Below, piece after piece: positions 9,704 to 48,320 of a stretch of DNA of 64,000 nucleotides. The stretch is from a virus. Each line of letters opens with the position of its first letter. Position 1 is the first letter of the stretch. The DNA is taken from IMG/VR virus record IMGVR_UViG_3300036826_000588, positions 1 to 64,000 of that record; one strand, given 5' to 3'. The notes under the pieces were generated by a model. That model had not been told where the DNA came from and made no database searches. It saw only the letters and a program-made list of their open reading frames with translations. The position numbers and the translations under genes are program-made.

Positions 9704-10069
9704 GTGAGCACGCGCACGGCCTCCAGGCCGCTGACGCCGCCGCCCACGATCTTCTGCGGTGCCTGTCGGACGCCCTTCGTGGCGGCAGGATCGCTGCCCG
9801 AGCACTGCCCGCGCTGCGGGTGGACGCTCAGCGCCGAGAGCGCCGAGCGGATGCACGTCTTCGCCTGCTCCAGCCCCGAATGCACGGGGCGTACCAGCTT
9901 CACCGCCGGGTGGATGGCGACGCTGGCAAGGGAGGGGTGGGTCTGGACGTGCTGGACGTGCGGGCGACAGCAGATGGCAAGGGTTCCTCTGGCCGAGTCG
10001 AAGTACCTGGGCTACATCCCCGAGGAGGAATCCCCTGATCGCCAAGCAGACCCGCCTCGACGACGCTGA
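9704..10069 (+). CDS. zinc-ribbon protein
   Basis: About 121 residues from GTG 9704 (an ATG at 9668 is also in frame). FCGACRTPF, CPRCGW, CSSPEC and CWTCG give two four-cysteine zinc sites. It overlaps the ParB-like gene and may be part of the modification operon. Function unknown. Confidence 0.55.
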   Translation: MSTRTASRPLTPPPTIFCGACRTPFVAAGSLPEHCPRCGWTLSAESAERMHVFACSSPECTGRTSFTAGWMATLAREGWVWTCWTCGRQQMARVPLAESKYLGYIPEEESPDRQADPPRRR

Positions 10070-10832
10070 CGACGCTCAGCTCAACCCGCACGAGGACGAC
10101 GAGCCGAATGCTCCGGCACTCGTCACGCTGGACGGCTCTGACGGCCGCCGGTGGCGCGGCTCCGAAGACCTCCTGCCGCTGCTCGTGCCGCTAGACTCGC
10201 TGACCCTCGACAAGGACAACCTCAAGAAGCACGACCAGTACAACATCGACACCGTCGCCGGCAGCCTGAAGGAGTACGGCCAGGTAGAGCCGCTCGTGGT
10301 CCGGCCGGACGGCACCCTCATCGGCGGCGAGGGTCGCATCCTCGCGATCCGCCAGGATCCGGAGCTCCGCTGGACGCACGTGGCGCGCGTGACGTTCCGC
10401 GGCGGCGAGAAGGCGGCACAGCGCCTTGGCATCCTCCTGAACCGTTCGGCCGAGCTTGGCGAGTGGGACAAGGAGAACCTGGCCGCCTTCTTCGAGCGCG
10501 CGGTCGCCGAGGAGGACGACCTCATGTCGCTGGGCTGGCGCCCGGACGACGTCGAAGACTTCATGGCCGGCCTGGGTCGCATCGCGGAGACGGAGGAGGA
10601 GGAGTTCCGCGGCGGCTACGCGGAGAGCCCGGAGGAGACCGCCGCGCGCAGCGCCGGGGCGCCGCCGCAGGCGGACCCGATCCGCCAGGCCATCCTGGTC
10701 TTCCCGGACGCCGACCAGTACACGACCTTCCAGCGCCACGTCGGCGTGCTGCGGAACACGTACGGCCTGGAGGGCGGCGGGATCACCCCCATCGTGTGCG
10801 AGGCCGTGCGGCGTGCAGCCGAGGGCGAGTAG
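10035..10832 (+). CDS. ParB/sulfiredoxin-like protein, apparent CTG start
   Basis: About 265 residues. After an acidic N-terminus, residues 45-110 carry the ParB-fold segment (VPLDSLTLDKDNLKKH, GQVEPLVVRPDGTLIGGEGR), the nucleotide-binding or nuclease module found in many phage ParB-like proteins. No ATG, GTG or TTG lies near the start, but GAGGAGG at 10022-10028 is 6 nt before an in-frame CTG at 10035. First gene of the coupled modification operon. ParB-like proteins are reported next to DNA-hypermodification enzymes, which fits here. Confidence 0.65.
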   Translation: MIAKQTRLDDADDAQLNPHEDDEPNAPALVTLDGSDGRRWRGSEDLLPLLVPLDSLTLDKDNLKKHDQYNIDTVAGSLKEYGQVEPLVVRPDGTLIGGEGRILAIRQDPELRWTHVARVTFRGGEKAAQRLGILLNRSAELGEWDKENLAAFFERAVAEEDDLMSLGWRPDDVEDFMAGLGRIAETEEEEFRGGYAESPEETAARSAGAPPQADPIRQAILVFPDADQYTTFQRHVGVLRNTYGLEGGGITPIVCEAVRRAAEGE

Positions 10833-11751
10833 GCCGGCGCTCACCCCGGAGGGCGAGCGCCGACTGCCGGCGGCGATCGCGTTCGCGCGCCTCCATCTGG
10901 AGAGCCAGGACATCGATCCGCTCTATCCGGTGCTGCGGGAGCTCCAGCGCGGGATGGAGCGGGACCAGGCGGTGTGGCACTCCTTGCTCTACGTCGCGTA
11001 CTACAACGTCGCCTCCAGCACGATCGCCTTCAGCACCTACTCGGAACCGGCGGCCGTCACGGGCCCGCTCGCCTCGCTTCCAACCGGGATCGAGCGTCGG
11101 GGCCTACGCGGCGGAGGCCCCCTGACGCAGCACACGGCGGCGTTGGAGGGCATGGCGTTCACGTACGGCGGCCTGCGCGAGTGGTTGACCAGGCGCTTCA
11201 CCGGCCAGCCGCGCACCGACTGGAACCTCGTGCAGGACACCTTCCAGGAGGCTTGGGGCAACGGCCGCTGGGCCGGCTACAAGACCGCGGAGGTGCTCAT
11301 GAAGGTCAATGGCTTCCCGCTGGAGGCAACCGACATGGGGAACGCCTTCAGCACGGGCCCGCGCCACGGCCTGGCGCTGTTCTACCCGCCGGTGGAAGGG
11401 AACACGGCACCGGCCATCCGCGAGCTGGACGCGCAGGGCTGGGATCTCCACGAGCGCATGGCTCAGGAGGGGGTCCACCTGGGCATCGAGCAACTCGAAA
11501 CGGTGCTCTGCGACTTCCACGCGATGGTCGAGGGCCGCTACTACGTCGGCTGGGACATCGACGGCCTCCAGGAGCAGTTGGACGCGGCCTGGCGGAAGGG
11601 GATCGACAGCCGGCCGTTGCTGGATCCGGTGTGGGCCGCCCGGAAGGCTGGTCTGCCCCACCGCTATCTCGGCGAGCTGAACGGCTGGAAGGGGGTCGAT
11701 CGGGCCCGTGGCCGCCAGTACCGCGACACCGGGCGGGTGCTGGGACGATGA
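10813..11751 (+). CDS. probable aGPT-Pplase-type transferase (DNA hypermodification)
   Basis: A 312-residue protein from GTG 10813, overlapping the ParB-like gene by 20 nt. The central block WGNGRWAGYK, AEVLMKVNG and STGPRHGL resembles what I recall of the alpha-glutamyl/putrescinyl-thymine pyrophosphorylase group, which replaces an activated hydroxymethyl group on a DNA pyrimidine with an amino compound. The assignment rests on remembered motifs and on its neighbours (kinase, FAD enzyme, TET/JBP enzyme). The aminated substrate cannot be predicted. Confidence 0.55.
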   Translation: MQPRASRPALTPEGERRLPAAIAFARLHLESQDIDPLYPVLRELQRGMERDQAVWHSLLYVAYYNVASSTIAFSTYSEPAAVTGPLASLPTGIERRGLRGGGPLTQHTAALEGMAFTYGGLREWLTRRFTGQPRTDWNLVQDTFQEAWGNGRWAGYKTAEVLMKVNGFPLEATDMGNAFSTGPRHGLALFYPPVEGNTAPAIRELDAQGWDLHERMAQEGVHLGIEQLETVLCDFHAMVEGRYYVGWDIDGLQEQLDAAWRKGIDSRPLLDPVWAARKAGLPHRYLGELNGWKGVDRARGRQYRDTGRVLGR

Positions 11752-12599
11752 GCGTCCACCTTCAGGGCTTCGGCTTTCTGGGCACCTACATCGGCTACCG
11801 GCTGGAGAAGGAGGGGATCCCCTTCACGTGGTCGGACACCGACGCCGCGGTAACGGCCTGGCGTGCCTGCACCGGAGCCATCTACCCAAGTGGCCACGCG
11901 CTCGACATGGAGTGCTATGACCGGTGGTCGGGCCGGCCGCCCAGCGACGTCTTCGAGGTCGCCGACTACTGGTACAGCACGAAAGGCGCGCCGCACGAGG
12001 GCCGGTGGCCGGCTCGGCGTGACATCGGAGCGCTCCGGTTGCACGCACTCCCCAGCTACCACGTCAACGCTCAGCGGTGGGTGGAGCAGGCGCGCCGCCG
12101 GTACGCCGAGCGGCGCACCGAGTGCCGGCCGGCCAGCTCGACACTGGTGATCGCGCACGGGTTCGGCCAGCGTCTGGATCACGTCGTGTGGGGCTGGACG
12201 CGCCGCGTACGGCTCCGCTTTGACCGCGCGGTGTTCGGGCCCAGTCCGGCCTTCTACTGCCGCGAGGGGCGCTTCACGATGGCCTACGCCTACCCGACGC
12301 CGGGCGAGCTGGGCGTGTGGTACGCCGGCTCCAGCCTGATCGTCCAGCGCACACCCAAGCAGTTGGAGATCACGCCGAAGTACGCACGCTGGGAGGCCAC
12401 CTTCAAGCGGCTGACCGCGGGCCTGGTGGAAATCGAGCCGATCGGTCCGTTCGTGCAGGGCTGGCGTCCGGCTGGGCGTCCGGAAGACGACGCGATGGTT
12501 GTCCGGACACCAGAGGGATGGGCCATCCGGCCGCTGTGGCACTCGGGTGTCCGGTGGGCGCCGGCCATCGCTGACGCCGTGGTGCAGGTGTTGCGATGA
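11748..12599 (+). CDS. FAD-dependent oxidoreductase (DNA-modification tailoring)
   Basis: A 283-residue protein. The N-terminus GFGFLGTYIGYRL followed by an acidic residue ending strand 2 (WSDTD) is a Rossmann dinucleotide site of the DAO/FAD type, and ACTGAIYPSG is a second flavin-fold loop. Such enzymes occur with aGPT-Pplases, where they are thought to oxidise the added amino-acid moiety. Overlaps both neighbours by 4 bp. Confidence 0.6.
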   Translation: MSVHLQGFGFLGTYIGYRLEKEGIPFTWSDTDAAVTAWRACTGAIYPSGHALDMECYDRWSGRPPSDVFEVADYWYSTKGAPHEGRWPARRDIGALRLHALPSYHVNAQRWVEQARRRYAERRTECRPASSTLVIAHGFGQRLDHVVWGWTRRVRLRFDRAVFGPSPAFYCREGRFTMAYAYPTPGELGVWYAGSSLIVQRTPKQLEITPKYARWEATFKRLTAGLVEIEPIGPFVQGWRPAGRPEDDAMVVRTPEGWAIRPLWHSGVRWAPAIADAVVQVLR

Positions 12600-13156
12600 C
12601 GCCCACGCTGTTCTACCTGTTCGGGCCGCCAGGCGCTGGCAAGACGACCCTGATGGAGACGCTATTGCGGGAGTGGCCGGCGATGGCACAGCACAGCGAA
12701 CCGTTCGCGTTCGTGTACCGGATCAAGGGCGGGGACTCGCTGATCGAGCTTGGAGAGCGCCGACCGCCGTTCAGCGGCACGGACACGCTCTCGATGTCGG
12801 TTGGGCCCGTGGCGTGCACGTGGATCGCTGAGCAGCCGCACCAGCGGATCGTCGGCGAAGGCGATCGTCTCGCATACGACGGCTTCTGGCTGGCGGCGCA
12901 GAACGCCGGCTACCGCCTGTGGCTGGTCCTCCTGGACACCTCCGACGTGGTTCTCGCGCTGCGCCGCGGTCGCCGAGCGGCGGCCGCCGGAGCGCAACGC
13001 CAGAACCCGCAGTGGCAGCGCGGCCGCGCGAGCAAGGCGCGCCGCCTGGCTGACACGTGGGGTGACGTGACTCGGCTCAACGCCAACCGCCCCGTGGCCG
13101 AACTGGCCGCGGAGCTGCTCTCTCACCCCTACGCCAAGGAGGTCTTCCCCGGGTGA
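12596..13156 (+). CDS. P-loop kinase (probable hydroxymethylpyrimidine DNA kinase)
   Basis: A 186-residue protein with Walker A FGPPGAGKTTL at residues 8-18, a FSGTDTLSM segment and an Arg-rich lid region. The size fits a small nucleotide-kinase-like P-loop enzyme. In phage hypermodification such kinases phosphorylate the hydroxymethyl group made by the dioxygenase so it can be displaced. The DNA substrate is inferred from the operon only. Confidence 0.6.
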   Translation: MTPTLFYLFGPPGAGKTTLMETLLREWPAMAQHSEPFAFVYRIKGGDSLIELGERRPPFSGTDTLSMSVGPVACTWIAEQPHQRIVGEGDRLAYDGFWLAAQNAGYRLWLVLLDTSDVVLALRRGRRAAAAGAQRQNPQWQRGRASKARRLADTWGDVTRLNANRPVAELAAELLSHPYAKEVFPG

Positions 13157-14025
13157 TCGACATTCGTGTCCGCACCCAGATTCCCCAGTCGGAACTCGAC
13201 TCCAAGATCGGCCGGATCCTGACCGAGGACGACTACAACATCCTGCTCACGCGAGCGACCACCGTCCGGAAGCCGGACGGTCAGCTCATGTGCGTCTACC
13301 TCCCCGGGATCATCCCGGAGGACGTGATGGCGCAGTCCTACGACACCCTCCACAGCTTCAAGAAGTTCCAGACGACCAACCGCGGCCTCGCCAGCGGAAC
13401 ACCGCGTGTGCGCCAGTACGCGGGCGGCCGCACCTACACGAAGCCGATCGCCAGCTCCATCGTGGGCGCCTTCGATGCGAAGCGCCCGTACCCGTACTGC
13501 CGCCTCACCGCCTGGACTGGCCAGGAGATGGAGCAGTACCGCGGCCTCTGGCCCCTCTTCGGCGTGATCGCCGACGCCTTCAAGAAGTACGTCCCTGACC
13601 GCTACGGCGTGCAGATGGCGATGGTCGAGAAGACGCAGCCGGAGTGGGTCATCAAGGGCACGCCGTTCACGACGGTGACGATCAACAACACCTACCCGAC
13701 TGGCGTGCACACAGATGCTGGCGACCTTCCACAGGGCTTCGGCAACCTGGCGGTGCTGCGGTACGGCGACTACAGCGGCGGCATCTTCACATTCCCACGT
13801 TACCGCGTGGGCGTTGACATGAAGCACGGCGATGTGCTGCTCATGGACGTTCACGAGTGGCATGGCAACACACAACTACAGCTCCATAGTGACGACGCGG
13901 AGCGCATCAGCATCGTCGCGTACTATCGCGCCGATGTCCACCGTTGTGGAACGTTCGCCGAGGAAGCCAAGAAGGCACAGGAGTATGAACACCAGAAGGC
14001 GGGGCGACAGGAGGCGCAACCGTGA
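13153..14025 (+). CDS. TET/JBP-family 2-oxoglutarate/Fe(II) dioxygenase
   Basis: A 290-residue protein. GVHTDAGD gives the HxD iron pair, GDVLLMDVHEWHGNT the distal histidine, and ERISIVAYYR the arginine that binds 2-oxoglutarate; LRYGDYSGG matches the family between them. These enzymes hydroxylate the 5-methyl group of thymine or 5-methylcytosine in DNA. No DNA methyltransferase is visible in the window, so thymine is the simpler substrate guess. Last gene of the coupled operon 10035-14025. Confidence 0.8.
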   Translation: MIDIRVRTQIPQSELDSKIGRILTEDDYNILLTRATTVRKPDGQLMCVYLPGIIPEDVMAQSYDTLHSFKKFQTTNRGLASGTPRVRQYAGGRTYTKPIASSIVGAFDAKRPYPYCRLTAWTGQEMEQYRGLWPLFGVIADAFKKYVPDRYGVQMAMVEKTQPEWVIKGTPFTTVTINNTYPTGVHTDAGDLPQGFGNLAVLRYGDYSGGIFTFPRYRVGVDMKHGDVLLMDVHEWHGNTQLQLHSDDAERISIVAYYRADVHRCGTFAEEAKKAQEYEHQKAGRQEAQP

Positions 14026-14027: not shown

Positions 14028-14576
14028 CTACCGCTGGCGGCGCGCGGCGTCCCTCTCCCGTTGACAAGCACTGCACTTCTGGTAAGTGCGGCCAAGCGGG
14101 TCGGTGTACCAGTACCTGTCGCTGACTTCGTGGCCGTGTGGACACGGCATCAGTTCAGTGGCGGCCTTCCGCGTGAAGCCCGTCGGACCATAGCGCGCTC
14201 GGCGCGTGGCCCAGCGGTCTGCGTACGTCTTCGGCGGTGGGTTGCTCGCGACGAGCGTCATGGCTCGGTCGAGCTGCGCGCGTTTCTCTCCGCAGAGAAA
14301 GGGCCGAAGCAGTGTCATCACAGCTTCGGCCGCTACCCCATCCAGCTTGAGCTGGAACCCAGGCTTTCGATTCCAGTTCTTCTTCTGGATGGGTCGCGGG
14401 TAGATGGTCCCTCCGAGTGCTGCCTGAAAGCGTTCGAGGGCCGGCAGGTAGGTGTTGTAGAGGCTGATCTGGAGGTAACGCCGACCAGTGCTCTGCCGGT
14501 TGGCATGGCAGGTGCCTTCGCCGTCCCAGAAGCCGGCACACCAGGCGATCTCCGTCAGGGGAATGGGCTCGCTCAC
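14028..14576 (-). CDS. LAGLIDADG homing endonuclease with zinc finger
   Basis: A 182-residue protein on the opposite strand. CAGFWDGEG near residue 13 is a single LAGLIDADG motif, implying a homodimer. The C-terminus adds CPHGH...CSACQ, a zinc finger seen in some phage homing enzymes. It ends 3 bp from the stop of the dioxygenase gene, with no intron or intein boundary visible, so it is a free-standing mobile gene placed behind the modification operon. Confidence 0.8.
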   Translation of the reverse strand: MSEPIPLTEIAWCAGFWDGEGTCHANRQSTGRRYLQISLYNTYLPALERFQAALGGTIYPRPIQKKNWNRKPGFQLKLDGVAAEAVMTLLRPFLCGEKRAQLDRAMTLVASNPPPKTYADRWATRRARYGPTGFTRKAATELMPCPHGHEVSDRYWYTDPLGRTYQKCSACQRERDAARRQR

Positions 14577-14626: not shown

Positions 14627-15226
14627 ATGTACGCGATGCTGGGCGACGTCCCGGCAGAGGTGCGCAACACCCTCTGGCCAGAGGACTCCATCGACCAGTC
14701 GTACGCTCGCTGGAGCTCGGGCTGGACGGTCGATATCGGCCAGCGCCGGCAGCCGGCCGGCATCTTCTCGGGCCAACCGATCATCGGCCGGCTCAGTGGT
14801 TGGGAGGTCCAGCCCTTCGTCTGGGACGGCTGGTGCCTCATCCACGTCGGCGTGATCCCGCTGCCCGAGCGGCTCTGGATCGGGCGCGTACCGAACCCCT
14901 CGTGGGCGCTCCTGAAGCGTCTCGCGTGGGTCGGTAGCCACCGGGCGCACGAGCGTGCTGTGCGCGAGACGGTGGCGCTGCTCGGAGAGGCAACGTCGGG
15001 GCCGCATTCCGCCCTGGCGGGAGATCCGCAGGGCCGCATCTACGCCATCCGAATCCACGGACTTGCGGCGCGCGCTGCGGTTATCCACAGGCTGGACGGT
15101 CCCGGATGGGCCGTCGTCAGCACGGGCCCGCTGGAAGGCGGCCAAGCAGTCGAGACAGGGGTGACTCCCCTGCGCGAGAGCGCGCTGGAGGAGCGCGAAG
15201 GAACCACAGCCGGAGAGACCGCATGA
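14627..15226 (+). CDS. hypothetical protein
   Basis: A 199-residue protein starting at ATG 14627 just past the homing endonuclease gene. Tryptophan-rich in the first half (WSSGW, GWEVQPFVWDGW), with no family recognised. It overlaps the ParB-like gene by ATGA, so it belongs to that transcription unit. Confidence 0.55.
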   Translation: MYAMLGDVPAEVRNTLWPEDSIDQSYARWSSGWTVDIGQRRQPAGIFSGQPIIGRLSGWEVQPFVWDGWCLIHVGVIPLPERLWIGRVPNPSWALLKRLAWVGSHRAHERAVRETVALLGEATSGPHSALAGDPQGRIYAIRIHGLAARAAVIHRLDGPGWAVVSTGPLEGGQAVETGVTPLRESALEEREGTTAGETA

Positions 15227-16335
15227 ACGCCACGGTGCAGACCCTGCCGCTCGACCAGATCGTCGTGGACCCCACGGTCCAGATCCGGAAGGTGACACGC
15301 GACGAAACGATCGCGCGCTACATGGAGTGCTTCGAGTACCTGCCGCCCGTCGTCGTGTACGACCTGGGCGACCACCTGCTCCTCGCGGACGGCTTTCACC
15401 GACACGGGGCGGCCAGCCGGCTGGTCGCCCGGGGGGAGCTGAATCCGCCGGTCATCAAGGCCGAGGTGCGCCAGGGCACGCGAGAGGATGCGCTGGAGTA
15501 CGCCGTGCTCGCGAACGCGGCAACCGGCGAGAAGCTCTCGATCGAGGAGCGCGACGCCGGGATCCGCCGGCTGCGCCAGCTCCACCCGCGCCACGCCGAG
15601 CGCGAGATCGCCCGCATGATGGGCGTCCACGAGTCGTGCGTGCACCGCCTGGTCGTCGTCGACCGCGTGCGCCAGGAGGTGCTGTGGAAGCCCGCCGGCC
15701 GCATCAGCGACACGCTGGTGTACGAGGTCGGGCTGGCCGAACGCCACCACTGGGCGAACCTGCTCAAGGCGGCGGACCGGCGGAACTGGACGCGCGACGA
15801 CCTCCGGCGGGTGCGCGACATCATCGGGGACGACGATGCCCCGGAGGAGTACCGCCACAAGCTGCTCGCCGGAGATGCCGACCCCGTGCCGGCGGGCGCG
15901 CCCTATCCGGTCGTGACCGTCATCCGCATGGACGACGAAGACGAGGATGTCGAGGGAGGGGAGCCCGAGGTGGACGGTGAGATCGCGGCCGCCGCGCCCC
16001 AGCGGGCCGGCTGGCGCGACCCGGTGGGCTCGGACGTTCCGGAGCGCTACAACCCGGTGCGGGCCCGACTCGTGCTGGAGTACAGCCAGCCGAACCCGGA
16101 GCCGCCGCGACACCGCGGCATTCGCGAGTACAAGCGCGAGGCGCTCGACATCCGCATCGTGCTCGACGGGACGGTGAACAACCGCGCCACGGACGGCCTT
16201 GGGGACCCGCGCGATCCGACGTGCGACCACGGGCTGGCCTACCTGCTGCGGGTCCTGAGCCAGAAGTGGTGGCGGGAGCTGTCCCCGAAGTGGCCTCAGC
16301 CGCCGGAGGCGCCGGCCCAGAGCGCGCTGCGGTGA
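15223..16335 (+). CDS. ParB-like protein with HTH
   Basis: A 370-residue protein. Residues 8-65 form a ParB nuclease-like domain (PLDQIVVDPTVQIR, LLLADGFHRHGA) and residues 100-140 a helix-turn-helix (EREIARMMGVHESCVHRLV). The rest is an acidic linker and a C-terminal domain of unknown type. Phage ParB-like proteins can act in partition, transcription or DNA modification. The second of three ParB-like proteins in this window. Confidence 0.75.
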   Translation: MNATVQTLPLDQIVVDPTVQIRKVTRDETIARYMECFEYLPPVVVYDLGDHLLLADGFHRHGAASRLVARGELNPPVIKAEVRQGTREDALEYAVLANAATGEKLSIEERDAGIRRLRQLHPRHAEREIARMMGVHESCVHRLVVVDRVRQEVLWKPAGRISDTLVYEVGLAERHHWANLLKAADRRNWTRDDLRRVRDIIGDDDAPEEYRHKLLAGDADPVPAGAPYPVVTVIRMDDEDEDVEGGEPEVDGEIAAAAPQRAGWRDPVGSDVPERYNPVRARLVLEYSQPNPEPPRHRGIREYKREALDIRIVLDGTVNNRATDGLGDPRDPTCDHGLAYLLRVLSQKWWRELSPKWPQPPEAPAQSALR

Positions 16336-19249: not shown

Positions 19250-19278
19250 ACTATAGCCGCTAGCGCGGATAAACGCAA
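19250..19278 (-). promoter_or_regulatory. leaderless promoter (array type)
   Basis: Minus strand: TTGCGT, 17-nt spacer, TATAGT, 7 nt to ATG-AAC. Faces away from the promoter at 19312, so the two form a divergent pair. Confidence 0.75.
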
Positions 19279-19311
19279 GCAAAAATAGGCCAAAATTAGC
19301 GGTAAAACCGC

Positions 19312-19340
19312 TTGCGTTTCACCGGCCGGTCGGCTACGAT
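19312..19340 (+). promoter_or_regulatory. leaderless promoter (array type)
   Basis: TTGCGT (19312-19317), 17-nt spacer, TACGAT (19335-19340), 6 nt to ATG-AAC. Confidence 0.8.
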
Positions 19341-19346
19341 TCGGGT

Positions 19347-19706
19347 ATGAACTGCTCCGCCGGAACCGCCCCCGCTCCCGCGTACGACCCGCCCGCGGTC
19401 GACCGCGCGGCCGTCGAGTTCTACCTGTGCCGGTTCGGCGCGATGGTCACGCTTGAGGAGACGCACCCGGCCGGCGACCCCCACGCGAACGAGGTCGTCA
19501 GCGCGCTGTGGTACGAGGCGGAGACGGGCGCGTACAACGACCCGGAAGCACCGGGCGCGCCGGGCGAACCGCCGGCCGCGTGGGTGGCCGACGAAGCGGC
19601 CAAGCGGGTGGCGTTCGTGCTGATGGCTCTGACGTTCGGATTCCACTTCGCCGCTGAGGCGGCGAAATCCGTGCTCGACCAGGCTGAGCCGGCTGAGCTG
19701 AGGTAG
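19347..19706 (+). CDS. hypothetical protein, leaderless
   Basis: A 119-residue Ala/Pro/Glu-rich protein starting MNC. The C-terminal half is helical and amphipathic. No family recognised. A monocistronic unit between its own promoter and a hairpin at 19713. Confidence 0.65.
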   Translation: MNCSAGTAPAPAYDPPAVDRAAVEFYLCRFGAMVTLEETHPAGDPHANEVVSALWYEAETGAYNDPEAPGAPGEPPAAWVADEAAKRVAFVLMALTFGFHFAAEAAKSVLDQAEPAELR

Positions 19707-19712
19707 CCGGGT

Positions 19713-19747
19713 GCCGGGCGTGCGCCAAAATAGGTGTTGCGCCCGGC
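19713..19747 (+). terminator. hairpin overlapping the next -35 box
   Basis: GCCGGGCG pairs with CGCCCGGC (19740-19747), with an AAAATA loop region. The -35 box of the next promoter (19737-19742) lies in the 3' arm. Confidence 0.6.
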
Positions 19748-19765
19748 GCGCCACGCGGCTATAAT
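19737..19765 (+). promoter_or_regulatory. leaderless promoter (array type)
   Basis: TTGCGC, 17-nt spacer, perfect TATAAT (19760-19765), 6 nt to ATG-AAC. Confidence 0.8.
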
Positions 19766-19771
19766 TCGAAT

Positions 19772-20221
19772 ATGAACTGTGACGCCACCGATAGCTGGAC
19801 GCTCGCGGACGGGACCCGCGTGGACGTGGACCGCTTCCGTGAGGCGTGCCCGATCAACGTCGGGCCGAACCGGTGCCCGGGCTGGGGCTGGGACGTGGAC
19901 CACGGACACAACGGGTCGATGGAGGTGGACGACCGCACAGGCCGGGTCACCGAGTACCACGCGTTCCTGGGTGACTACGAAAGCGTGAAGGTCGTGGCCG
20001 GCGCCCGGTGGTGCGCCGAGCTGGTGCCCGACGGCCGGACCGCGAACCGGGTGTGGCGGAACCGCGCGCTCATCAGCGCCGCGTTGGTCGGCCACCTCGG
20101 GGAGCGCGGCGCTTTCGAGCACGCGTACCGGCTGAGCGTCACGTTCGACGGCGCCCGGATGACGATCCGTGAGTACGACTTCGGCCGGTTCACCCTCACG
20201 GTCGACGCCGCGCTGAAGTAG
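19772..20221 (+). CDS. hypothetical protein, leaderless
   Basis: A 149-residue protein starting MNC, with beta-strand-rich composition and several tryptophans. No family recognised. Monocistronic, closed by the hairpin at 20231. Confidence 0.65.
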   Translation: MNCDATDSWTLADGTRVDVDRFREACPINVGPNRCPGWGWDVDHGHNGSMEVDDRTGRVTEYHAFLGDYESVKVVAGARWCAELVPDGRTANRVWRNRALISAALVGHLGERGAFEHAYRLSVTFDGARMTIREYDFGRFTLTVDAALK

Positions 20222-20230
20222 GCGCGAAAA

Positions 20231-20261
20231 GGCGTCCGGTAAGCTTGACTTACCGGACGCC
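20231..20261 (+). terminator. hairpin with the next -35 box in its loop and arm
   Basis: A 13-bp perfect stem GGCGTCCGGTAAG/CTTACCGGACGCC with loop CTTGA. The next -35 TTGACT (20245-20250) spans the loop and 3' arm, so terminator and promoter share bases. Confidence 0.8.
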
Positions 20262-20273
20262 AGCGGCTACGAT
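20245..20273 (+). promoter_or_regulatory. leaderless promoter (array type)
   Basis: TTGACT, 17-nt spacer, TACGAT (20268-20273), 6 nt to ATG-AAC. Confidence 0.8.
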
Positions 20274-20279
20274 TCGAAT

Positions 20280-20747
20280 ATGAACTGCACCGACACCGCC
20301 CCGGCCGCCGGCGTCCGCGTCGCCTCCGTGAAGGTCATGAAGATGGAGCCGGACCGCCCGTACGGCGCGACCAAGGAGCACGTCAAGGCGCGCCTGTACT
20401 TCAGCGGTACCCGCACCGGCGAGTACGAAGCGCTGGGCGCGCTGCTCGCCGCGCAGACCGGGCGGTCGCGTGCGGTTGCGCCACCCCTGGGGCCGAACGG
20501 GGAGCCCGCCCCCGCCGACGAGTGGGAAGCCTTCGAGTCGGCCGCCGTGCTCGACTACCGAGACCGCGTCGGCGCGTACCGGTCGCTGGTGGACGCCGCG
20601 CTGGCCGCCGCTGGCCTGCCGGCGCAGAAGGCGGTCTGGGGCGCCCGGGCGGGCTGCTCCTGCGGGTGCTCCCCCGCGTTCGTCCTCGGCCTCACCCGCG
20701 GCGTGAACGTGTTCGTGGGCTATGAGGTGGTGCCGGCCGGCGAGTAG
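20280..20747 (+). CDS. hypothetical protein, leaderless
   Basis: A 155-residue protein starting MNC. It has an alpha/beta N-terminal half, a helical middle and a CSCGC cluster near residue 123 followed by a hydrophobic strand. No family recognised. Confidence 0.65.
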   Translation: MNCTDTAPAAGVRVASVKVMKMEPDRPYGATKEHVKARLYFSGTRTGEYEALGALLAAQTGRSRAVAPPLGPNGEPAPADEWEAFESAAVLDYRDRVGAYRSLVDAALAAAGLPAQKAVWGARAGCSCGCSPAFVLGLTRGVNVFVGYEVVPAGE

Positions 20748-20766
20748 CGGGCCAGGCGTCGGGCGC

Positions 20767-20797
20767 AAGCGTCGGGCGGAGCGGCCGCCCGACGCTT
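20767..20797 (+). terminator. hairpin terminator
   Basis: A 13-bp perfect stem AAGCGTCGGGCGG/CCGCCCGACGCTT with loop AGCGG, 19 nt after the stop. Confidence 0.75.
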
Positions 20798-20850
20798 CGG
20801 CGTGTCCGGAAAACGGGGTGGTTGGTCGTCCAAAAAGTTCACCAAAGTTG

Positions 20851-20879
20851 TTGCGATTCCCGTCGCAAGCGGCTACGAT
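20851..20879 (+). promoter_or_regulatory. leaderless promoter (array type)
   Basis: TTGCGA, 17-nt spacer, TACGAT (20874-20879), 6 nt to ATG-AAC. Confidence 0.8.
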
Positions 20880-20885
20880 TCGAGC

Positions 20886-21752
20886 ATGAACAACGAAGCC
20901 ACCACGACCGACACGACCGCGACCACCACCCCGAGCAAGACGCGCGGCAAGCGCAACCGAAAGGCGACCGACCGGCCGGTGCCCGGCAAGGTCTACCAGC
21001 TCACCGGCGGCGAGGGTGTGGCGGCCATCAGCAACGGGAACACCTGGGCCGAGTCCGAGGTGGGGTCCGACCAGGCCGCAATCGTGGCGACCGCGGCGGA
21101 GCGCCTGGCGGCGGAGCGGGACGCGCGGGTCGCGGCCGCGCGCGCCGAGATCGAGGCGGAGGACGCCGCCAAGCTGGCCGCCAAGCCGGCCGCGTGCGGC
21201 ACGGACGGGCGCGTGCCCGACCTGCGGCTGATGAGCGATCGCGCGGCCACCCCGGCGCCCGAGACGGAGGAGCCCGAGTTCGCGACCGAGGACGCGGCGG
21301 ACCAGCCGGCCGCCCCCGCGGCGACCGCGAAGCCGAAGCGGGAGCGGAAGGCGCCCGGCAGGCCGGCGGCCAAGTCCGCGGCGCGGAAGCCCGCGGTGAA
21401 GGCGACGGCGGTCAAGGAGCCGCGCGGGCTGGCCCGGACGCGCCTTCAGGAGCAGCGCAAGGCGACTGCGAAGGCGAAGCCGGCTGCGGCGCCCGGCAAG
21501 ACCGCGAAGGCGGCGAAGCCGGCTGGCGTGCCGGCCTGGCAGGTGGACGCGGCCAAGACGGCGGCGAACCCGATCCAGGGTGGCGTGGTCCTCGCCCTGC
21601 TCAAGAAGGGCGCGCTGACGGACGACCTGATCGCGGCCAAGCTCGGCAAGAGCCACGCCTGGACGAACCGCACGACGCTGTCCCTGGCCCACGTCGGCCT
21701 CACCGTCCGCGAGCGCGACGGCCGGTCGATCGTGAACCGGCTGAAGAAGTAG
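20886..21752 (+). CDS. Ala/Lys-rich H1-like protein, leaderless
   Basis: A 288-residue protein. After a Thr-rich start, residues 60-220 are dominated by Ala, Lys, Pro and Arg in KPA/AKPA-like repeats, like histone-H1-type or nucleoid tails. The last 65 residues (ALLKKGALTDDLIAAKLGKSHAWTNRTTL) resemble a small winged helix. This suggests a DNA-coating or host-chromatin-acting phage protein. The start is fixed by the promoter; an ATG-free extension upstream was rejected. Confidence 0.65.
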   Translation: MNNEATTTDTTATTTPSKTRGKRNRKATDRPVPGKVYQLTGGEGVAAISNGNTWAESEVGSDQAAIVATAAERLAAERDARVAAARAEIEAEDAAKLAAKPAACGTDGRVPDLRLMSDRAATPAPETEEPEFATEDAADQPAAPAATAKPKRERKAPGRPAAKSAARKPAVKATAVKEPRGLARTRLQEQRKATAKAKPAAAPGKTAKAAKPAGVPAWQVDAAKTAANPIQGGVVLALLKKGALTDDLIAAKLGKSHAWTNRTTLSLAHVGLTVRERDGRSIVNRLKK

Positions 21753-21765
21753 CGGAACCGGCCCG

Positions 21766-21792
21766 GCGCCCGGGGCAAAGTGCCCCGGGCGC
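21766..21792 (+). terminator. hairpin abutting the next -35 box
   Basis: A 12-bp perfect stem GCGCCCGGGGCA/TGCCCCGGGCGC with loop AAG. The -35 box begins at the next base (21793). Confidence 0.8.
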
Positions 21793-21821
21793 TTGACTTT
21801 ATCCGCGCAAGCGCCTACGAT
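21793..21821 (+). promoter_or_regulatory. leaderless promoter (array type)
   Basis: TTGACT, 17-nt spacer, TACGAT (21816-21821), 6 nt to GTG-AAC. Confidence 0.8.
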
Positions 21822-21827
21822 TCAATC

Positions 21828-22037
21828 GTGAACTGCACCGTACCGACCGAAACCGCCGAGGACGTCCAGGCCCAGTTCGACGCCGGAATGGAGGTGGGCC
21901 TGAAGGCGCTGGACCGTGGTGCCTGGGGCACCCGCACCCGGCGCGATTTCGAGGCGGAGCGCCTTCGCTGCATGGCCGGTGACCCGTGGGGCGTCGGCTA
22001 CTGGAGCGGCGTGCTGCGCGCGTTCGACGCGCGGTAG
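21828..22037 (+). CDS. hypothetical protein, leaderless GTG start
   Basis: A 69-residue protein beginning (V/M)NC. Acidic N-terminal half and a DPWGVGYWSGVL segment near the C-terminus. Short, with no family recognised. The promoter geometry decides this start over an upstream ATG at 21780. Confidence 0.6.
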   Translation: MNCTVPTETAEDVQAQFDAGMEVGLKALDRGAWGTRTRRDFEAERLRCMAGDPWGVGYWSGVLRAFDAR

Positions 22038-22046
22038 CGGCCCCCC

Positions 22047-22081
22047 GTGGGCGTCCGGAGCAGCGCGCTCCGGGCGCCCAC
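22047..22081 (+). terminator. hairpin terminator with T tract
   Basis: A 14-bp stem GTGGGCGTCCGGAG/CTCCGGGCGCCCAC (one G-U pair) followed by CTTTTG. Confidence 0.8.
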
Positions 22082-22098
22082 CTTTTGTCGAGAAACGC

Positions 22099-22127
22099 TT
22101 GACATATCCGGCGCGTGAGGCTACGAT
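22099..22127 (+). promoter_or_regulatory. leaderless promoter (array type)
   Basis: Perfect TTGACA, 17-nt spacer, TACGAT (22122-22127), 6 nt to ATG-AAC. Confidence 0.85.
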
Positions 22128-22133
22128 TCGAGT

Positions 22134-22688
22134 ATGAACACTGCCACGACCGAAGCAACCGAACTGGCCTTCCACGTCACGATCGAGAACACCCGCTCGT
22201 TTGGTGACCCGTACCTGAAGGTGTACGCGCGCTTGGGTCGCGTCGAGGGAACCAGCGGGTTCCGGAACCTCAGCGAGTACGACGCCTGGAAGGACGCGAA
22301 CGCGCGGCTCGCCGAGCTGGAGATCGACTGCCAGCTCGACGCGACCGCCGGCCGCCGCGGTGACGCGCCGTACGGCTACGCGGTCCAGTTCGCCCCGGGC
22401 CGGGTGCGGGCGGAGCAGGCGAAGCACATGGCCGCGGCGTTCGTCCGGATCGAGCGTGGCCTGAAGCGCCTGGAGGAGCGGTTCGGCGCACCGAAGGACT
22501 TCGTGGACTACGTGGCCCGTGTCGCCGACGTCCTCGGCGTCAAGCGGTTCTGCGAGAGCGTCAGCCGGGACTCGCACTTCTACACCGAGACCGGAATGCG
22601 CTGGTACGCGGTGGACACGTTCCGGTACCGCGTGGAGGACGCCGCGGCCAAGTTCCGCGAGTCGGTGGGCTACGTTCGCCCCGAGTAG
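22134..22688 (+). CDS. hypothetical protein, leaderless
   Basis: A 184-residue alpha/beta protein. No signal peptide, membrane segment or known motif. The consensus -35 box makes this potentially one of the strongest promoters of the array. Function unknown. Confidence 0.65.
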   Translation: MNTATTEATELAFHVTIENTRSFGDPYLKVYARLGRVEGTSGFRNLSEYDAWKDANARLAELEIDCQLDATAGRRGDAPYGYAVQFAPGRVRAEQAKHMAAAFVRIERGLKRLEERFGAPKDFVDYVARVADVLGVKRFCESVSRDSHFYTETGMRWYAVDTFRYRVEDAAAKFRESVGYVRPE

Positions 22689-22736
22689 GTAGCGGCTGCC
22701 CGTACACCGTACTCGAAAAAAAGGTCAGCGTAGGTG

Positions 22737-22765
22737 TTGCGTTTGTCGTCCTATGCGGCTATGAT
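22737..22765 (+). promoter_or_regulatory. leaderless promoter (array type)
   Basis: TTGCGT, 17-nt spacer, TATGAT (22760-22765), 6 nt to ATG-AAC. No clear terminator precedes it. Confidence 0.8.
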
Positions 22766-22771
22766 TCGAGC

Positions 22772-23308
22772 ATGAACTACGCCACGGCCGCTCCCCGAAG
22801 GATGGTTGCCCGCTTCACCTCTCCGTGCGCCGCGGGATGCGGGCACGCGATCGAGCCCGGCCAGTGGATGCTGTACGCGAACCGCGTGAGCCGCCACGTC
22901 GAGTGCCCGAGCGGGGTGCCGGCGGCCGCCGCGGTCCAGCGCCCAGAGCCGCTGCGGATCGCGGTCGAGGACAAGGGTGTCTACATCCTCGACGGCTCGA
23001 TCGTCCAGGTGGTCGTCACCCGTGACGGCAAGCGCACCTACGCGCTCCGGTGGGTCGACAAGGGCGGCCAGCGTGTCACCGAAGCCGGCACGTTCGTCAA
23101 CGGCGAGTACGAGTACGAGCGCGGCCTGGTGGCCCAGGTGGCCGAGCGCGGCCGGAAGATGACGAAGGATGAGGCGAAGCGGTTCATCCTCCGCTACGGG
23201 GTGTGCTGCCGCTGCCACCGGACCCTCAAGGCGGCCAAGAGCGTGGAGCGCGCGCTGGAGGACGGCCTGGGCCCGGTCTGCCGCACCTACTTCGACCGCG
23301 CGGCCTGA
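22772..23308 (+). CDS. DUF6011-like protein, leaderless
   Basis: A 178-residue protein. The N-terminus has CAAGCGHAI, a zinc-knuckle-like segment. The C-terminus YGVCCRCHRTLKAAKS...GLGPVCR matches the short DUF6011 zinc motif found in many actinophage proteins. Probably nucleic-acid-binding; role unknown. Confidence 0.65.
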   Translation: MNYATAAPRRMVARFTSPCAAGCGHAIEPGQWMLYANRVSRHVECPSGVPAAAAVQRPEPLRIAVEDKGVYILDGSIVQVVVTRDGKRTYALRWVDKGGQRVTEAGTFVNGEYEYERGLVAQVAERGRKMTKDEAKRFILRYGVCCRCHRTLKAAKSVERALEDGLGPVCRTYFDRAA

Positions 23309-23321
23309 CCGGTCGACCGCC

Positions 23322-23356
23322 AACAACCCGGGTAAAAAAACTTCACCCGGGTTGTT
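23322..23356 (+). terminator. hairpin terminator sharing bases with the next -35 box
   Basis: A 12-bp stem AACAACCCGGGT/ACCCGGGTTGTT followed by GCTTTTT. The last two stem bases are the first two of the next -35 box. Confidence 0.85.
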
Positions 23357-23383
23357 GCTTTTTAGGGGGTACGCGGCTACAAT
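23355..23383 (+). promoter_or_regulatory. leaderless promoter (array type)
   Basis: TTGCTT, 17-nt spacer, TACAAT (23378-23383), 6 nt to ATG-AAC. Confidence 0.8.
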
Positions 23384-23389
23384 TCGAGT

Positions 23390-23878
23390 ATGAACTTTGC
23401 CACGACCGCCAAGCGCTTCGGTTCCGCCGGCATCGCCTTCGGACTGGCCGCCTTCACCGCCGTCACGGTGGCCGCCGGTGAGCCGGCGCAGTACGACCCC
23501 TCCGCCGACCCGGGCGCCCCGGCCGGTGCGCTGTGGACGAAGACGAACCCGACCGCGGACGACTGCGCGGTGCTGCGTGAGGCGGTCTCGAACAACCAGC
23601 TCGCCCCGGAGGCGGTGTTCGACCCGCAGGCGCCGTGCGAGGCGCTCGGGATCAACCGCGCGGCGGGCGCCTACTTCTGCGACTGCATGAGCGTGGACGA
23701 GACGCCCGGGCCGGACGAGATGGGTTCGTCGCTCGTCTCGGCCGAGCTGGACTACGCGAACGGGCAGGTGACCGCGGTCGTCGCGGTCGCCGGCCGGACC
23801 GCGTGGGTGGGTGTCTCGCGTCGCGGCTGGCTGCCGTACTTCACCGGCCGGCAGCACTTCGTCGGATCGGGCCGGTGA
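23390..23878 (+). CDS. putative secreted small protein, leaderless
   Basis: A 162-residue protein. Residues 8-30 (KRFGSAGIAFGLAAFTAV) look like a basic start plus hydrophobic signal segment, followed by an acidic domain with CA, CE and CDC cysteines that may form disulfides. No family recognised. GTGA overlap with the next ORF. Confidence 0.6.
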   Translation: MNFATTAKRFGSAGIAFGLAAFTAVTVAAGEPAQYDPSADPGAPAGALWTKTNPTADDCAVLREAVSNNQLAPEAVFDPQAPCEALGINRAAGAYFCDCMSVDETPGPDEMGSSLVSAELDYANGQVTAVVAVAGRTAWVGVSRRGWLPYFTGRQHFVGSGR

Positions 23879-24051
23879 ACCCGCGTCGGGTCGGCGGCCA
23901 GCACCAGTTCGCGCGCCGGGTGACCGGCGCGCGGGCGGCCGCCCGGCGGGTCATCGCGGCCCAGGCCGGGTTGGACCCAGAGGCGACCGAGCGGCAGTAC
24001 CGGCGGGAGCGCGCCGCGCGGCGCGAGGACCGCGAGAACCAGGACCGGTAG
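23875..24051 (+). CDS. small basic protein
   Basis: A 58-residue Arg/Ala-rich helical protein from GTG 23875, coupled to the gene before it. One of the few array genes without its own promoter. Function unknown. Confidence 0.5.
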   Translation: MNPRRVGGQHQFARRVTGARAAARRVIAAQAGLDPEATERQYRRERAARREDRENQDR

Positions 24052-24059
24052 CCGTCAAG

Positions 24060-24088
24060 CACCCGGGCGGGTGATACCCGCCCGGGTG
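24060..24088 (+). terminator. hairpin terminator
   Basis: A 12-bp perfect stem CACCCGGGCGGG/CCCGCCCGGGTG with loop TGATA. Confidence 0.8.
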
Positions 24089-24115
24089 CAACGCGTGAAA
24101 AAGACCGCGAAACGC

Positions 24116-24144
24116 TTGCGATTATCCGCGCAACCGGCTACGAT
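24116..24144 (+). promoter_or_regulatory. leaderless promoter (array type)
   Basis: TTGCGA, 17-nt spacer, TACGAT (24139-24144), 6 nt to ATG-AAC. Confidence 0.8.
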
Positions 24145-24150
24145 TCGAGT

Positions 24151-24468
24151 ATGAACTGCGACGCCTCTCCCGCTCCGAAGCGCCAGCGCCCGGGCGGCGA
24201 TCACCGCGGTAGCGCCGCCAGCCGGCGGGCCCGCAAGCACTGGATGCTGAACCAGGAGCGGTGGAACGGAGACGGCGTCGAGTGCGACTGCGCGCTGGGG
24301 ATCGTGTCGGAGTGCGCGGGCCGGGTGACCTTCCTCACCGTTGAGGCGGACCGGATCGTGCCTGGCGGTTCGTACGGCCGGCACAACGTCCAGCCCGCTT
24401 GCCGCGCGTGCAACGCCGCGCGGAGCGACAAGCCGATGAGCGTGTTCGCGGCCGCGGCGGCCGCATAG
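24151..24468 (+). CDS. HNH-like nuclease, leaderless
   Basis: A 105-residue protein starting MNC. EADRIVPGGSYGRHNVQPACRACN is read as D-R-I-V-P then N-V-Q then CxxCN, the common phage HNH ending, with CDC earlier for the first zinc ligands. The first His of the usual DH pair is Arg, so activity is uncertain. Confidence 0.6.
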   Translation: MNCDASPAPKRQRPGGDHRGSAASRRARKHWMLNQERWNGDGVECDCALGIVSECAGRVTFLTVEADRIVPGGSYGRHNVQPACRACNAARSDKPMSVFAAAAAA

Positions 24469-24479
24469 GAGTGGAGCCG

Positions 24480-24599
24480 ATGTGCGAGTACAAAACGGAC
24501 CTAATGTGCGGAGAGGAGTGCGAGTGCGAGCTCTGCCCGTGCGGCGAGTACACCGGAGACGGGCGAATGTGCGAGACGTGCGCGCTCGGGATCGGGTAG
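24480..24599 (+). CDS. 39-residue Cys-rich protein
   Basis: ATG 24480 behind GGAG. It contains nine cysteines in MCE, CGEECECELCPCG and CETCA contexts, enough for two zinc ions. Too short for family recognition. Confidence 0.5.
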   Translation: MCEYKTDLMCGEECECELCPCGEYTGDGRMCETCALGIG

Positions 24600-25087
24600 C
24601 GGAGGAGCTGGAGGAGCGCTACCGGGCGCTCCTCCAGCGCTGGCCGGCGGTGGAGGTGGCCGTCGACTGGTGGATTCGCAACTGGAACGCGCCTGTGGTC
24701 GTGGAGCCCACCTACACCCGGGCGGACGACGAGGCCGACGACCTACCGCTCCAGCCGTGGGTGCACGAGCTGGCAGTGCTGCCCCACCTCCAGGGAGGCG
24801 CCTTCGCGGTGGAGGACGGCATGCTGGTGGTGCGCCTGTCGGGGACGCGAGAGACCGCCGAAGGCGCTGAGGAGCGCTGGCGACGCCGTTTCGAGGTGAA
24901 GCTGATCGAGGCCGAGCTGGACTGGGAGCCGCCGTGGTTGGCCGCCCTCCGCCGTGGGCGCCCGGTCCAGGCGGTCCTGGTCGGCGACGACCGGGCGACG
25001 TGCGTGGCGGTCCAGCGGTTCCGGGCGCAGTTCGACGATGCCCAGTCACGCGCGCTGTGGCCGCGCGGCATGCCGGGCGACGATTGA
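24569..25087 (+). CDS. hypothetical protein
   Basis: About 172 residues if read from GTG 24569 (GTG 24578 also possible). Overlaps the Cys-rich ORF. Trp-rich, acidic alpha/beta protein with no family recognised. The start is uncertain because there is no ribosome site. Confidence 0.5.
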   Translation: MRDVRARDRVAEELEERYRALLQRWPAVEVAVDWWIRNWNAPVVVEPTYTRADDEADDLPLQPWVHELAVLPHLQGGAFAVEDGMLVVRLSGTRETAEGAEERWRRRFEVKLIEAELDWEPPWLAALRRGRPVQAVLVGDDRATCVAVQRFRAQFDDAQSRALWPRGMPGDD

Positions 25088-25099
25088 CGTTGTAGGCGC

Positions 25100-25128
25100 T
25101 TGCGTTATCCGGCGCGAGCGCCTACAAT
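25100..25128 (+). promoter_or_regulatory. leaderless promoter (array type)
   Basis: TTGCGT, 17-nt spacer, TACAAT (25123-25128), 6 nt to ATG-AAC. It follows the previous stop after only 13 nt, with no hairpin. Confidence 0.8.
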
Positions 25129-25134
25129 TCGAGT

Positions 25135-25308
25135 ATGAACTGCCGACACGAGACGGGGCCGCGGTGTAGCGTATGCGGCGAACGGACGGCCGAGGACGAC
25201 CTGGCCGAGATGTACGACCCGCGCACGGCGCCTGGTCCGGACGGAGTGCACCCGGCCGTGATCTGCCACCCCGACTGCGGGCTGGCGCGCGGGCTGGAGG
25301 TGGCGTAG
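25135..25308 (+). CDS. small zinc-knuckle protein, leaderless
   Basis: A 57-residue protein starting MNC with CRHE, CSVCGE and CHPDC, a compact treble-clef-like Cys/His set. The next gene begins at the base after its stop. Confidence 0.6.
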   Translation: MNCRHETGPRCSVCGERTAEDDLAEMYDPRTAPGPDGVHPAVICHPDCGLARGLEVA

Positions 25309-25527
25309 GTGGGCGCTGCCGAGCAGTTGGCCCGGGTGGTGGAGCAGGCGGTCTACGAGATCGCCTGCGGCCCGGCCGGCGAGGAGCTGGAGTGCGTCGA
25401 CGCGCCGCGCCGCGAAGGCCAGGACGCGAACGGGAACGACCGCTGGACGATGGCGTTCCACGTCGGTGGCGGCCGGGAAGTGCGGATCCGCCTGGAGGAG
25501 TCCGGACCGCCGTTCCGGGTGGAGTAG
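25309..25527 (+). CDS. hypothetical protein
   Basis: A 72-residue acidic alpha/beta protein read from a GTG directly after the TAG of the previous gene, so translation is likely coupled. Function unknown. Confidence 0.55.
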   Translation: MGAAEQLARVVEQAVYEIACGPAGEELECVDAPRREGQDANGNDRWTMAFHVGGGREVRIRLEESGPPFRVE

Positions 25528-25534
25528 GCCAGCA

Positions 25535-25562
25535 CGCCAGGGTGAGCAATCTCACCCTGGCG
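25535..25562 (+). terminator. hairpin abutting the next -35 box
   Basis: A 12-bp perfect stem CGCCAGGGTGAG/CTCACCCTGGCG with loop CAAT. The -35 TTGCGA begins 2 nt later. Confidence 0.85.
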
Positions 25563-25563
25563 C

Positions 25564-25592
25564 TTGCGATTGGCCGCGCATGCGGCTATACT
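25564..25592 (+). promoter_or_regulatory. leaderless promoter (array type)
   Basis: TTGCGA, 17-nt spacer, TATACT (25587-25592), 6 nt to ATG-AAC. Confidence 0.8.
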
Positions 25593-25598
25593 TCGACT

Positions 25599-26231
25599 AT
25601 GAACTGCTTGGACCTGACCTCCCAGACTCCCGCCGAGATCGACCGCCAGTGGGCCGACGCGGAGGCCACGCTGGCCCGGCCGCGCCAGGAGCTGGCCGAG
25701 ACCCGCAAGTCGATCCGCCGTTACGACCGGTTCGGCAAGGTGCCCGAGTACCTGACCAAGCGCGAGGCGCAGCAGGTGGAGCGGCTCCGCGAGGCCAGCA
25801 AGGTGCTGGACCCGTTCAAGGCCGAGTGGGAGCGGCGCGGCGGCTGGACGCGGTACGAGCTGTGCCTGGGCGGCCACGTGCACCGGCACTCGCCGCGGTG
25901 CAGCAGCCTCCACCCGACCAGCGCCACCGTCATCCTGGCCGAGCTGACGGACCTCACGGAGCGCCGGGTGGTGGAGCTGAAGGGCTTCGCCGCGTGCACG
26001 ATCTGCTTCCCCTGGGCGCCCACGGTTCCGGCCTTCCAGGCCGGCCAGAAGGCCAGCGAAGAGGCCGAGGCAGCCAAGCAGGCCGGCCGCTGCCCCGGAA
26101 GCGGCAAGTGGTTCCAGAACCCCACCCGCCGGCTGTACCTCCCCTGCCCGGACTGCGGGACGCTGATGAGGCCCACCCCCACCGGAGCGGTTCGGGCGCA
26201 CAACAAGCCGAAGGCGAAGGCGGCGAAGTAG
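25599..26231 (+). CDS. coiled-coil/zinc-ribbon protein, leaderless
   Basis: A 210-residue protein starting MNC. Residues 10-75 are a charged helical (likely coiled-coil) segment, the middle has CLGGHVHRH and CTICF, and the C-terminus has CPGSGK and CPDCG followed by a Lys-rich tail. Possible nucleic-acid-binding adaptor; function unknown. Confidence 0.65.
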   Translation: MNCLDLTSQTPAEIDRQWADAEATLARPRQELAETRKSIRRYDRFGKVPEYLTKREAQQVERLREASKVLDPFKAEWERRGGWTRYELCLGGHVHRHSPRCSSLHPTSATVILAELTDLTERRVVELKGFAACTICFPWAPTVPAFQAGQKASEEAEAAKQAGRCPGSGKWFQNPTRRLYLPCPDCGTLMRPTPTGAVRAHNKPKAKAAK

Positions 26232-26244
26232 CCGCCCCCGCCCG

Positions 26245-26276
26245 GCGCCCCGGTTGCCAAAAGGCGGCCGGGGCGC
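26245..26276 (+). terminator. hairpin abutting the next -35 box
   Basis: A 14-bp stem (GCGCCCCGG/CCGGGGCGC extended inward by GCC/GGC and two G-U pairs) with loop AAAA. The next -35 starts at 26277. Confidence 0.8.
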
Positions 26277-26305
26277 TTGCGTTTTCAGGGACCAGCGGCT
26301 ACAAT
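26277..26305 (+). promoter_or_regulatory. leaderless promoter (array type)
   Basis: TTGCGT, 17-nt spacer, TACAAT (26300-26305), 6 nt to ATG-AAC. Last plus-strand member of the array. Confidence 0.8.
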
Positions 26306-26311
26306 TCGAAT

Positions 26312-36186: not shown

Positions 36187-36192
36187 ACCCGA

Positions 36193-47505: not shown

Positions 47506-47554
47506 CCGCCACCTCTTTTCAGCCATGCCGCATCGGGCTGTACCGTTCTCGGCA

Positions 47555-47779: not shown

Positions 47780-47792
47780 CGGACGGTTCGGT

Positions 47793-48319: not shown

Positions 48320-48320
48320 T

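Follow-up and report, generated by a model that had tools for sequence, protein, structure and literature searches.

The question raised by this locus is what a bacterial virus gains from five tightly packed genes that look like the successive steps of a DNA modification pathway. An earlier note on the window, which is a 64-kb stretch out of an 89.8-kb virus record, had read the genes as a hypermodification operon acting by oxidation, phosphorylation, amino transfer, and FAD-dependent tailoring, and had left open which pyrimidine is modified. All five ORFs are open (Table 1) and neighbors overlap by 20, 4, 4, and 4 nt along the cassette, as had been claimed; each of the five protein calls is backed by profiles or predicted folds, and the reading of the operon as a whole is supported by the families and by the conservation of the cassette. 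Families, folds, cassette conservation, and the interchange of TET with the thymidylate synthase (TS) family were computed, and we infer which base is the substrate, which amino acid is loaded, what is finally made, what ParB does, and that the DNA is protected. The cassette would very probably turn some thymines into bulky, amino-bearing bases that protect against bacterial restriction. More specifically, it probably acts on phage DNA that has already been replicated and builds there a hypermodified thymidine derived from an amino acid, ending at 5-aminomethyl-dU.

Table 1. Coordinates, strand, and supporting evidence of the cassette genes and associated features of the window
Feature	Position	Strand	Evidence
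Cassette, order ParB-ADDT-FAD-kinase-TET	10035-14025	+	five open ORFs
ParB-like protein, 265 aa	10035..10832	+	phrog_620 3.9e-24; AF2 fold; ParB in 29/32 ADDT loci
ADDT, amino acid:DNA transferase, 312 aa, GTG start	10813..11751	+	PF18724 1.5e-18; solved-structure profile matches
DAAO-fold flavoenzyme, FAD1 family, predicted N-alpha-aminoacyl-thymidine oxidase/lyase, 283 aa	11748..12599	+	AF2, Foldseek, hhalign
P-loop kinase PF18751, predicted 5-hmdU DNA kinase, 186 aa	12596..13156	+	PF18751 3.9e-26; 29/32 loci
TET/JBP 2OG-Fe(II) dioxygenase, TETw subfamily, predicted thymine hydroxylase, 290 aa	13153..14025	+	PF12851 1.3e-22
Codons H186-T-D188, first part of the TET Fe(II) triad	13708..13716	+	22-sequence alignment
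Codon H237 (HEWHGN), distal Fe(II) ligand of TET	13861..13863	+	invariant
Codon R251 (ERISIV), predicted 2-oxoglutarate-binding Arg of TET	13903..13905	+	invariant
Second ParB-like protein	15223..16335	+	phrog_1033 4e-18; 1.2 kb downstream of cassette

The transferase and the kinase were the calls to be checked by profile search, and neither 10813 nor 12596 falls in an unrelated family. The first is an ADDT and the second belongs to PF18751 (Ploopntkinase3), both with Pfam matches over the curated cut-offs. The name aGPT-Pplase, by which the transferase had been called, is an old one now divided in Pfam between ADDT (PF18724) and HMUDK_hel (PF18723); since the Stenotrophomonas phage Sonora has both ADDT and HMUDK_hel, the old label spans two families, and the protein from 10813 falls in ADDT (formerly aGPT-Pplase2). 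Its profile (A2) matches the solved structures 25qc (1.1e-14) and 8z2m, the glycinyltransferase of Pseudomonas phage PaMx11 (E 7e-9), so the aGPT-Pplase-like call stands in its modern form.

The kinase call stands with a refinement: the protein is a P-loop kinase with an intact Walker A motif, GPPGAGKTT, of family PF18751 and not of the M6-type HMUDK family PF18748. Neither PF18748 nor PF18723 was matched in the 89.8-kb record, a weak absence because control genomes gave no match either; Sonora, the positive control, has both. From its context, the PF18751 protein is predicted to phosphorylate 5-hmdU in DNA. The kinase also matches phrog_800, labelled "terminase small subunit" (1.2e-13); PF18751 fits better, and the terminase lies elsewhere.

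For the oxygenase, the motifs pointed out earlier are confirmed. Its Tet_JBP match also exceeds the curated cut-off, H186xD188 (HTDAGD), H237 (HEWHGN), and R251 are invariant in 22 aligned TET sequences, and the corresponding profile (A7) matches TET2 at 4.8e-9 and Naegleria Tet as well. The window TET is 47-51% identical to most proteins of the TETw subfamily and 19-26% identical to TETa proteins.

For the ParB-like protein, the ParB_N Pfam score is under its cut-off; PHROG ParB models match (Table 1), and the AF2 model, in which residues 1-43 are mostly of low confidence, resembles the N-domains of ParB/Noc/KorB CTPases in Foldseek (top match 7bnk, E 6.5e-7), which together bear out the ParB-like call. 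The start at 10035 is a CTG with an AGGAGG Shine-Dalgarno sequence at 10023-10028, and a GTG at 10185 is an alternative start; the GC content by codon position (0.82/0.42/0.86) indicates that 10035-10184 is coding in the ParB frame.

The five families also keep together across other viruses. In IMG/VR, 77 ADDT-bearing loci collapsed to 43 non-redundant ones, 32 of which have at least 3 kb on each side. Among these full-flank loci, ParB and the PF18751 kinase each accompany ADDT in 29/32, TET in 28/32, and a FAD enzyme (FAD1 or FAD2) in 27/32, and all five families are found together in 26; because the loci were retrieved with cassette ADDTs, these statistics are valid for that ADDT subfamily. 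Two main layouts recur, with TETa before ADDT (17/19) or TETw after ADDT, at the end (18/22). The five families are also the first genes of Gordonia phage CaiB, Rhodococcus phage Tonitrus, and Mycobacterium phage Phelemich. Kozie has four of the five, and LilMcDreamy has the cassette families minus a recognized FAD enzyme, with no FAD1 or FAD2 type found beside its ADDT. The cassette is thus not unique but common to dozens of other phages.

On the preferred reading, the steps would run as follows. At selected thymines, the TET/JBP enzyme would hydroxylate the 5-methyl group to give 5-hmdU, and the PF18751 kinase would add a phosphate to the hydroxymethyl group. ADDT would then swap this phosphate for an amino acid, most likely glycine, attached through its alpha-amino group. 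The product would be N-alpha-glycyl-T, whose glycyl part the DAAO-fold flavoenzyme would oxidize, freeing glyoxylate and leaving 5-aminomethyl-dU. The ParB-like protein would bring the enzymes, chiefly TET, to DNA sites, and the modified T would shield the phage DNA from restriction enzymes reading T-containing sites. No report of the biochemistry of TET-started thymidine hypermodification was found in the literature searched.

The last chemical step falls to the flavoenzyme. Neither Pfam nor PHROG gives a match for this FAD protein, a single-sequence search found no relatives among viral contigs, and the PDB holds no credible sequence match. Modelled from an alignment with 11 viral relatives (FAD1), it adopts a D-amino-acid oxidase fold with a pLDDT of 90.6, so that the FAD-enzyme call is established by structure prediction. 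In Foldseek this model also matches the PaMx11 N-alpha-GlyT lyase, 8z2o (TM 0.64), and general D-amino-acid oxidases outscore it. There is no direct sequence match between FAD1 and this lyase (gp47), and the sequence link runs solely via the second family, FAD2, which is a remote homologue of FAD1 (hhalign E 6.5e-5) and matches 8z2o by sequence at 8.6e-11. FAD1 and FAD2 swap at the same cassette position and never co-occur; Phelemich, for example, carries FAD2 without FAD1, and CaiB and Tonitrus carry FAD1.

These data leave some room for a different side chain, with ADDT loading another amino acid and the flavoenzyme yielding, for example, an oxidized or cyclized product instead of 5-aminomethyl-dU. 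The divergence of FAD1 from the known lyase and its better scores with D-amino-acid oxidase folds may possibly point to another amino acid or another oxidation, and two FAD families alternate. Some cassettes (L011, L015, L060, and L068) have no FAD enzyme, which indicates that products differ between phages. Against this, it is FAD2, the family exchanging in place with FAD1, that matches the glycyl-T lyase by sequence. Moreover, a GWRP motif with R240 is invariant in the FAD1 alignment. In DAAO and glycine oxidase (ThiO), a GxRP-type arginine motif binds the carboxylate, and the resemblance means that an amino-acid substrate fits. We therefore regard a different side chain as a possibility to be taken seriously, though a minority one, next to the route through glycyl-T to 5-aminomethyl-dU.

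The base itself was the point that the earlier note had left open, and here co-occurrence is informative. The test was run over the whole records of 53 cassette-bearing viruses. TET is present in 52 of the 53, and the thymidylate synthase/dUMP-hydroxymethylase family in 0/52; the single TET-less record carries this synthase/hydroxymethylase. The same family is present in five of six TET-less ADDT records (G031, G049, G051, Sonora, and Epa5), the sixth (G050) being a 24-kb fragment without a synthase; it should be noted that such records are few and that G031, G050, and G051 share one ADDT lineage. In G046, TET is found elsewhere in the record and there is no synthase. TET and the hydroxymethylase family thus behave as alternative sources of 5-hmdU. 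The TS family (PF00303) and C5-methyltransferases (PF00145) are both absent from the 89.8-kb record of the window, which is perhaps an incomplete contig, and controls gave matches for both. C5-methyltransferases, on which a TET that oxidizes 5mC would depend, exceed the cut-off in 6/53 cassette records and in 0/5 cultured complete phages.

This interchange and the scarcity of C5-methyltransferases argue that TET oxidizes thymine, not 5-methylcytosine, and the solved relatives of ADDT and of the lyase, which act on thymidine derivatives, further favor thymine. Sequence evidence therefore favors thymine over 5mC as the TET substrate. The characterized phage TETs reportedly act on 5mC in clusters linked to C5-methyltransferases (Burke et al. 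2021), and a cytosine version of the pathway can be drawn, in which TET oxidizes 5mC made by a host or phage methyltransferase to 5hmC, which then receives its decoration from the kinase, transferase, and flavoenzyme; the six records with a methyltransferase would suit it. This version is improbable, because the methyltransferase is missing from the window record and from the five cultured phages, TET is replaced by makers of 5-hmdU precursors, and the solved relatives of both ADDT and the FAD enzyme use thymidine derivatives. Host-made 5mC could still feed TET.

That the ParB-like protein and the kinase instead serve packaging or partition, leaving a modification set of only TET, ADDT, and FAD, is very unlikely: the cassette precedes the terminase in the actinophages and adjoins it in CaiB, Phelemich, and Kozie, and phrog_800 matches the kinase, yet in the window the terminase is about 17 kb away and both genes remain with ADDT, the kinase is a PF18751 member with an intact Walker A motif, and the chemistry requires a kinase step.

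The ParB-like protein is the least understood part of the thymidine cassette. In HTVC112P, ParB is paired with TET and no ADDT match was found, which makes recruitment of TET to DNA a natural guess, and the modification sites may be chosen by ParB. The second ParB-like protein is possibly linked to the cassette; in L013, L015, and L016 ParB likewise comes after TETw. In its fullest form, our proposal is that a distinct TET-last cassette lineage, absent from the phage records searched, converts in-DNA thymine into 5-aminomethyl-dU or a similar base, solely at sites picked by a ParB-family, CTP-dependent sliding clamp, and that TET and dUMP hydroxymethylase can stand in for each other as entries to one amino-acid pathway. 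Such a cassette would be a site-directed, replication-independent counterpart of the wholesale T replacement of the M6 type. This combined claim we put forward only tentatively, as less likely than not.

If the thymidine reading is true, phage TETs would be able to act on thymine besides 5-methylcytosine, and the amino-acid decoration of T would have two interchangeable starts, one in the nucleotide pool (dUMP hydroxymethylase) and one in finished DNA (TET). The TET route would spare the dTTP pool and could permit partial, site-selective modification, unlike replacement of the M6 type. Site-specific modification of this kind would be relevant to restriction escape and to the supply of DNA-labelling enzymes, and the cultured relatives CaiB, Tonitrus, and Phelemich make thymine oxidation by a phage TET directly testable.

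One of the closest known systems is that of Tonitrus, CaiB, and Phelemich, in which a single tight cluster holds all five families; the Tonitrus paper (PMC11955845) describes it as a five-gene system for thymidine hypermodification. The cassette of the window is an intact, real member of this kind of system already described in actinobacteriophages, a precedent on which the earlier note was silent. It differs in gene order (ParB-ADDT-FAD-kinase-TET versus ParB-TET-ADDT followed by kinase and FAD in either order) and in its TET subfamily, TETw; neither turned up among the phage records that were searched.

In M6, ViI, and phi W-14, a similar logic of 5-hmdU DNA kinase and transferase operates, and 5-hmdU is thought to enter as a dNTP, replacing T at replication (PMC6449724). 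The window cassette shares the kinase-transferase logic, whereas its 5-hmdU is predicted to arise in DNA at chosen thymines. With the N-alpha-GlyT/5-NmdU pathway of PaMx11 (gp46, 8z2m; gp47, 8z2o), it has in common homologues of ADDT and of the DAAO-fold flavoenzyme. The Mesyanzhinovviridae relatives Sonora and Epa5 have a TS-family enzyme and no TET, whereas the window uses TET and PF18751. Sonora has the order ADDT, DAO flavoenzyme, HMUDK_HMUD1, HMUDK_hel, Nmad5, TS, and its kinase is of the HMUDK_HMUD1/HMUDK_hel type; the window kinase belongs to neither HMUDK family. The DAO flavoenzyme of Sonora is annotated as a membrane protein.

Finally, in the base J pathway of kinetoplastids (JBP1/2), a TET/JBP enzyme hydroxylates thymine in DNA and the product is then decorated with glucose. 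The predicted window pathway is alike in that TET/JBP hydroxylation of thymine would take place in DNA with decoration afterwards, and differs in that the decoration would be a phosphate and then an amino acid instead of glucose.

The large terminase of the window appears to be in two pieces, its ATPase-like and nuclease-like halves forming separate ORFs that match successive parts of one family profile. Between the two lie other genes, partly on the minus strand, that span about 4.3 kb. The three-part ORF of 661 aa listed below stands just 3' of the portal gene.

A promoter-like block, TTGCG/TTGAC followed after about 17 nt by TAYRAT-TCGAxT, was found in at least 12 copies, at window positions 19273-26321 and also at about 35977-36250 on the minus strand. 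ATGAAC starts lie immediately 3' of these blocks, and some 7 nt separate the −10-like hexamer from the ATG; this probably marks a set of small phage genes whose transcripts are leaderless.

Besides the ParB-like gene of the cassette, the window carries two others, both assigned to the same family, indicating a phage with at least three ParB-family proteins. Directly past the TET gene, the opposite strand carries a LAGLIDADG-like homing endonuclease ORF. The Ro60 gene comes next after the tRNA array, and in locus L003 an SSB-like ORF adjoins the beta clamp gene.

Features of the window and of other loci (L003; L022, Pelagibacter phage HTVC112P; L092, Stenotrophomonas phage Sonora)
Feature	Position	Strand	Match or annotation
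Homing endonuclease ORF	14028-14576	minus	LAGLIDADG-like
ParB-like gene	15223-16335		phrog_1033
Large terminase, ATPase-like half	31560-32399		phrog_38 positions 266-459
Large terminase, nuclease-like half	36683-37654		phrog_38 positions 464-718
661-aa ORF	39894-41879		HTH + 2'-5' RNA ligase/LigT phosphoesterase-like domain + portal-like C-terminal region
34 predicted tRNA genes (array)	47433-61625		
ParB-like gene	60402-61403	minus	phrog_1033
Ro60 protein gene	61740-63524		TROVE + vWA
DNA polymerase III beta clamp, virus-encoded	L003:6243-7439	minus	
Relative of the window's TET subfamily (TETw)	L022:5366-6900		annotated 'DnaJ/SNF2 DNA repair protein'
DAO-type flavoenzyme	L092:6864-7688		PF01266, 3.5e-7

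In HTVC112P, the TETw relative is adjoined by a ParB-like gene, and a search of this phage for an ADDT match found none; the ParB-TET pair seems to occur there on its own and is wrongly annotated. In Sonora, the flavoenzyme gene is flanked by those for ADDT and the kinase and carries the label 'putative membrane protein'.
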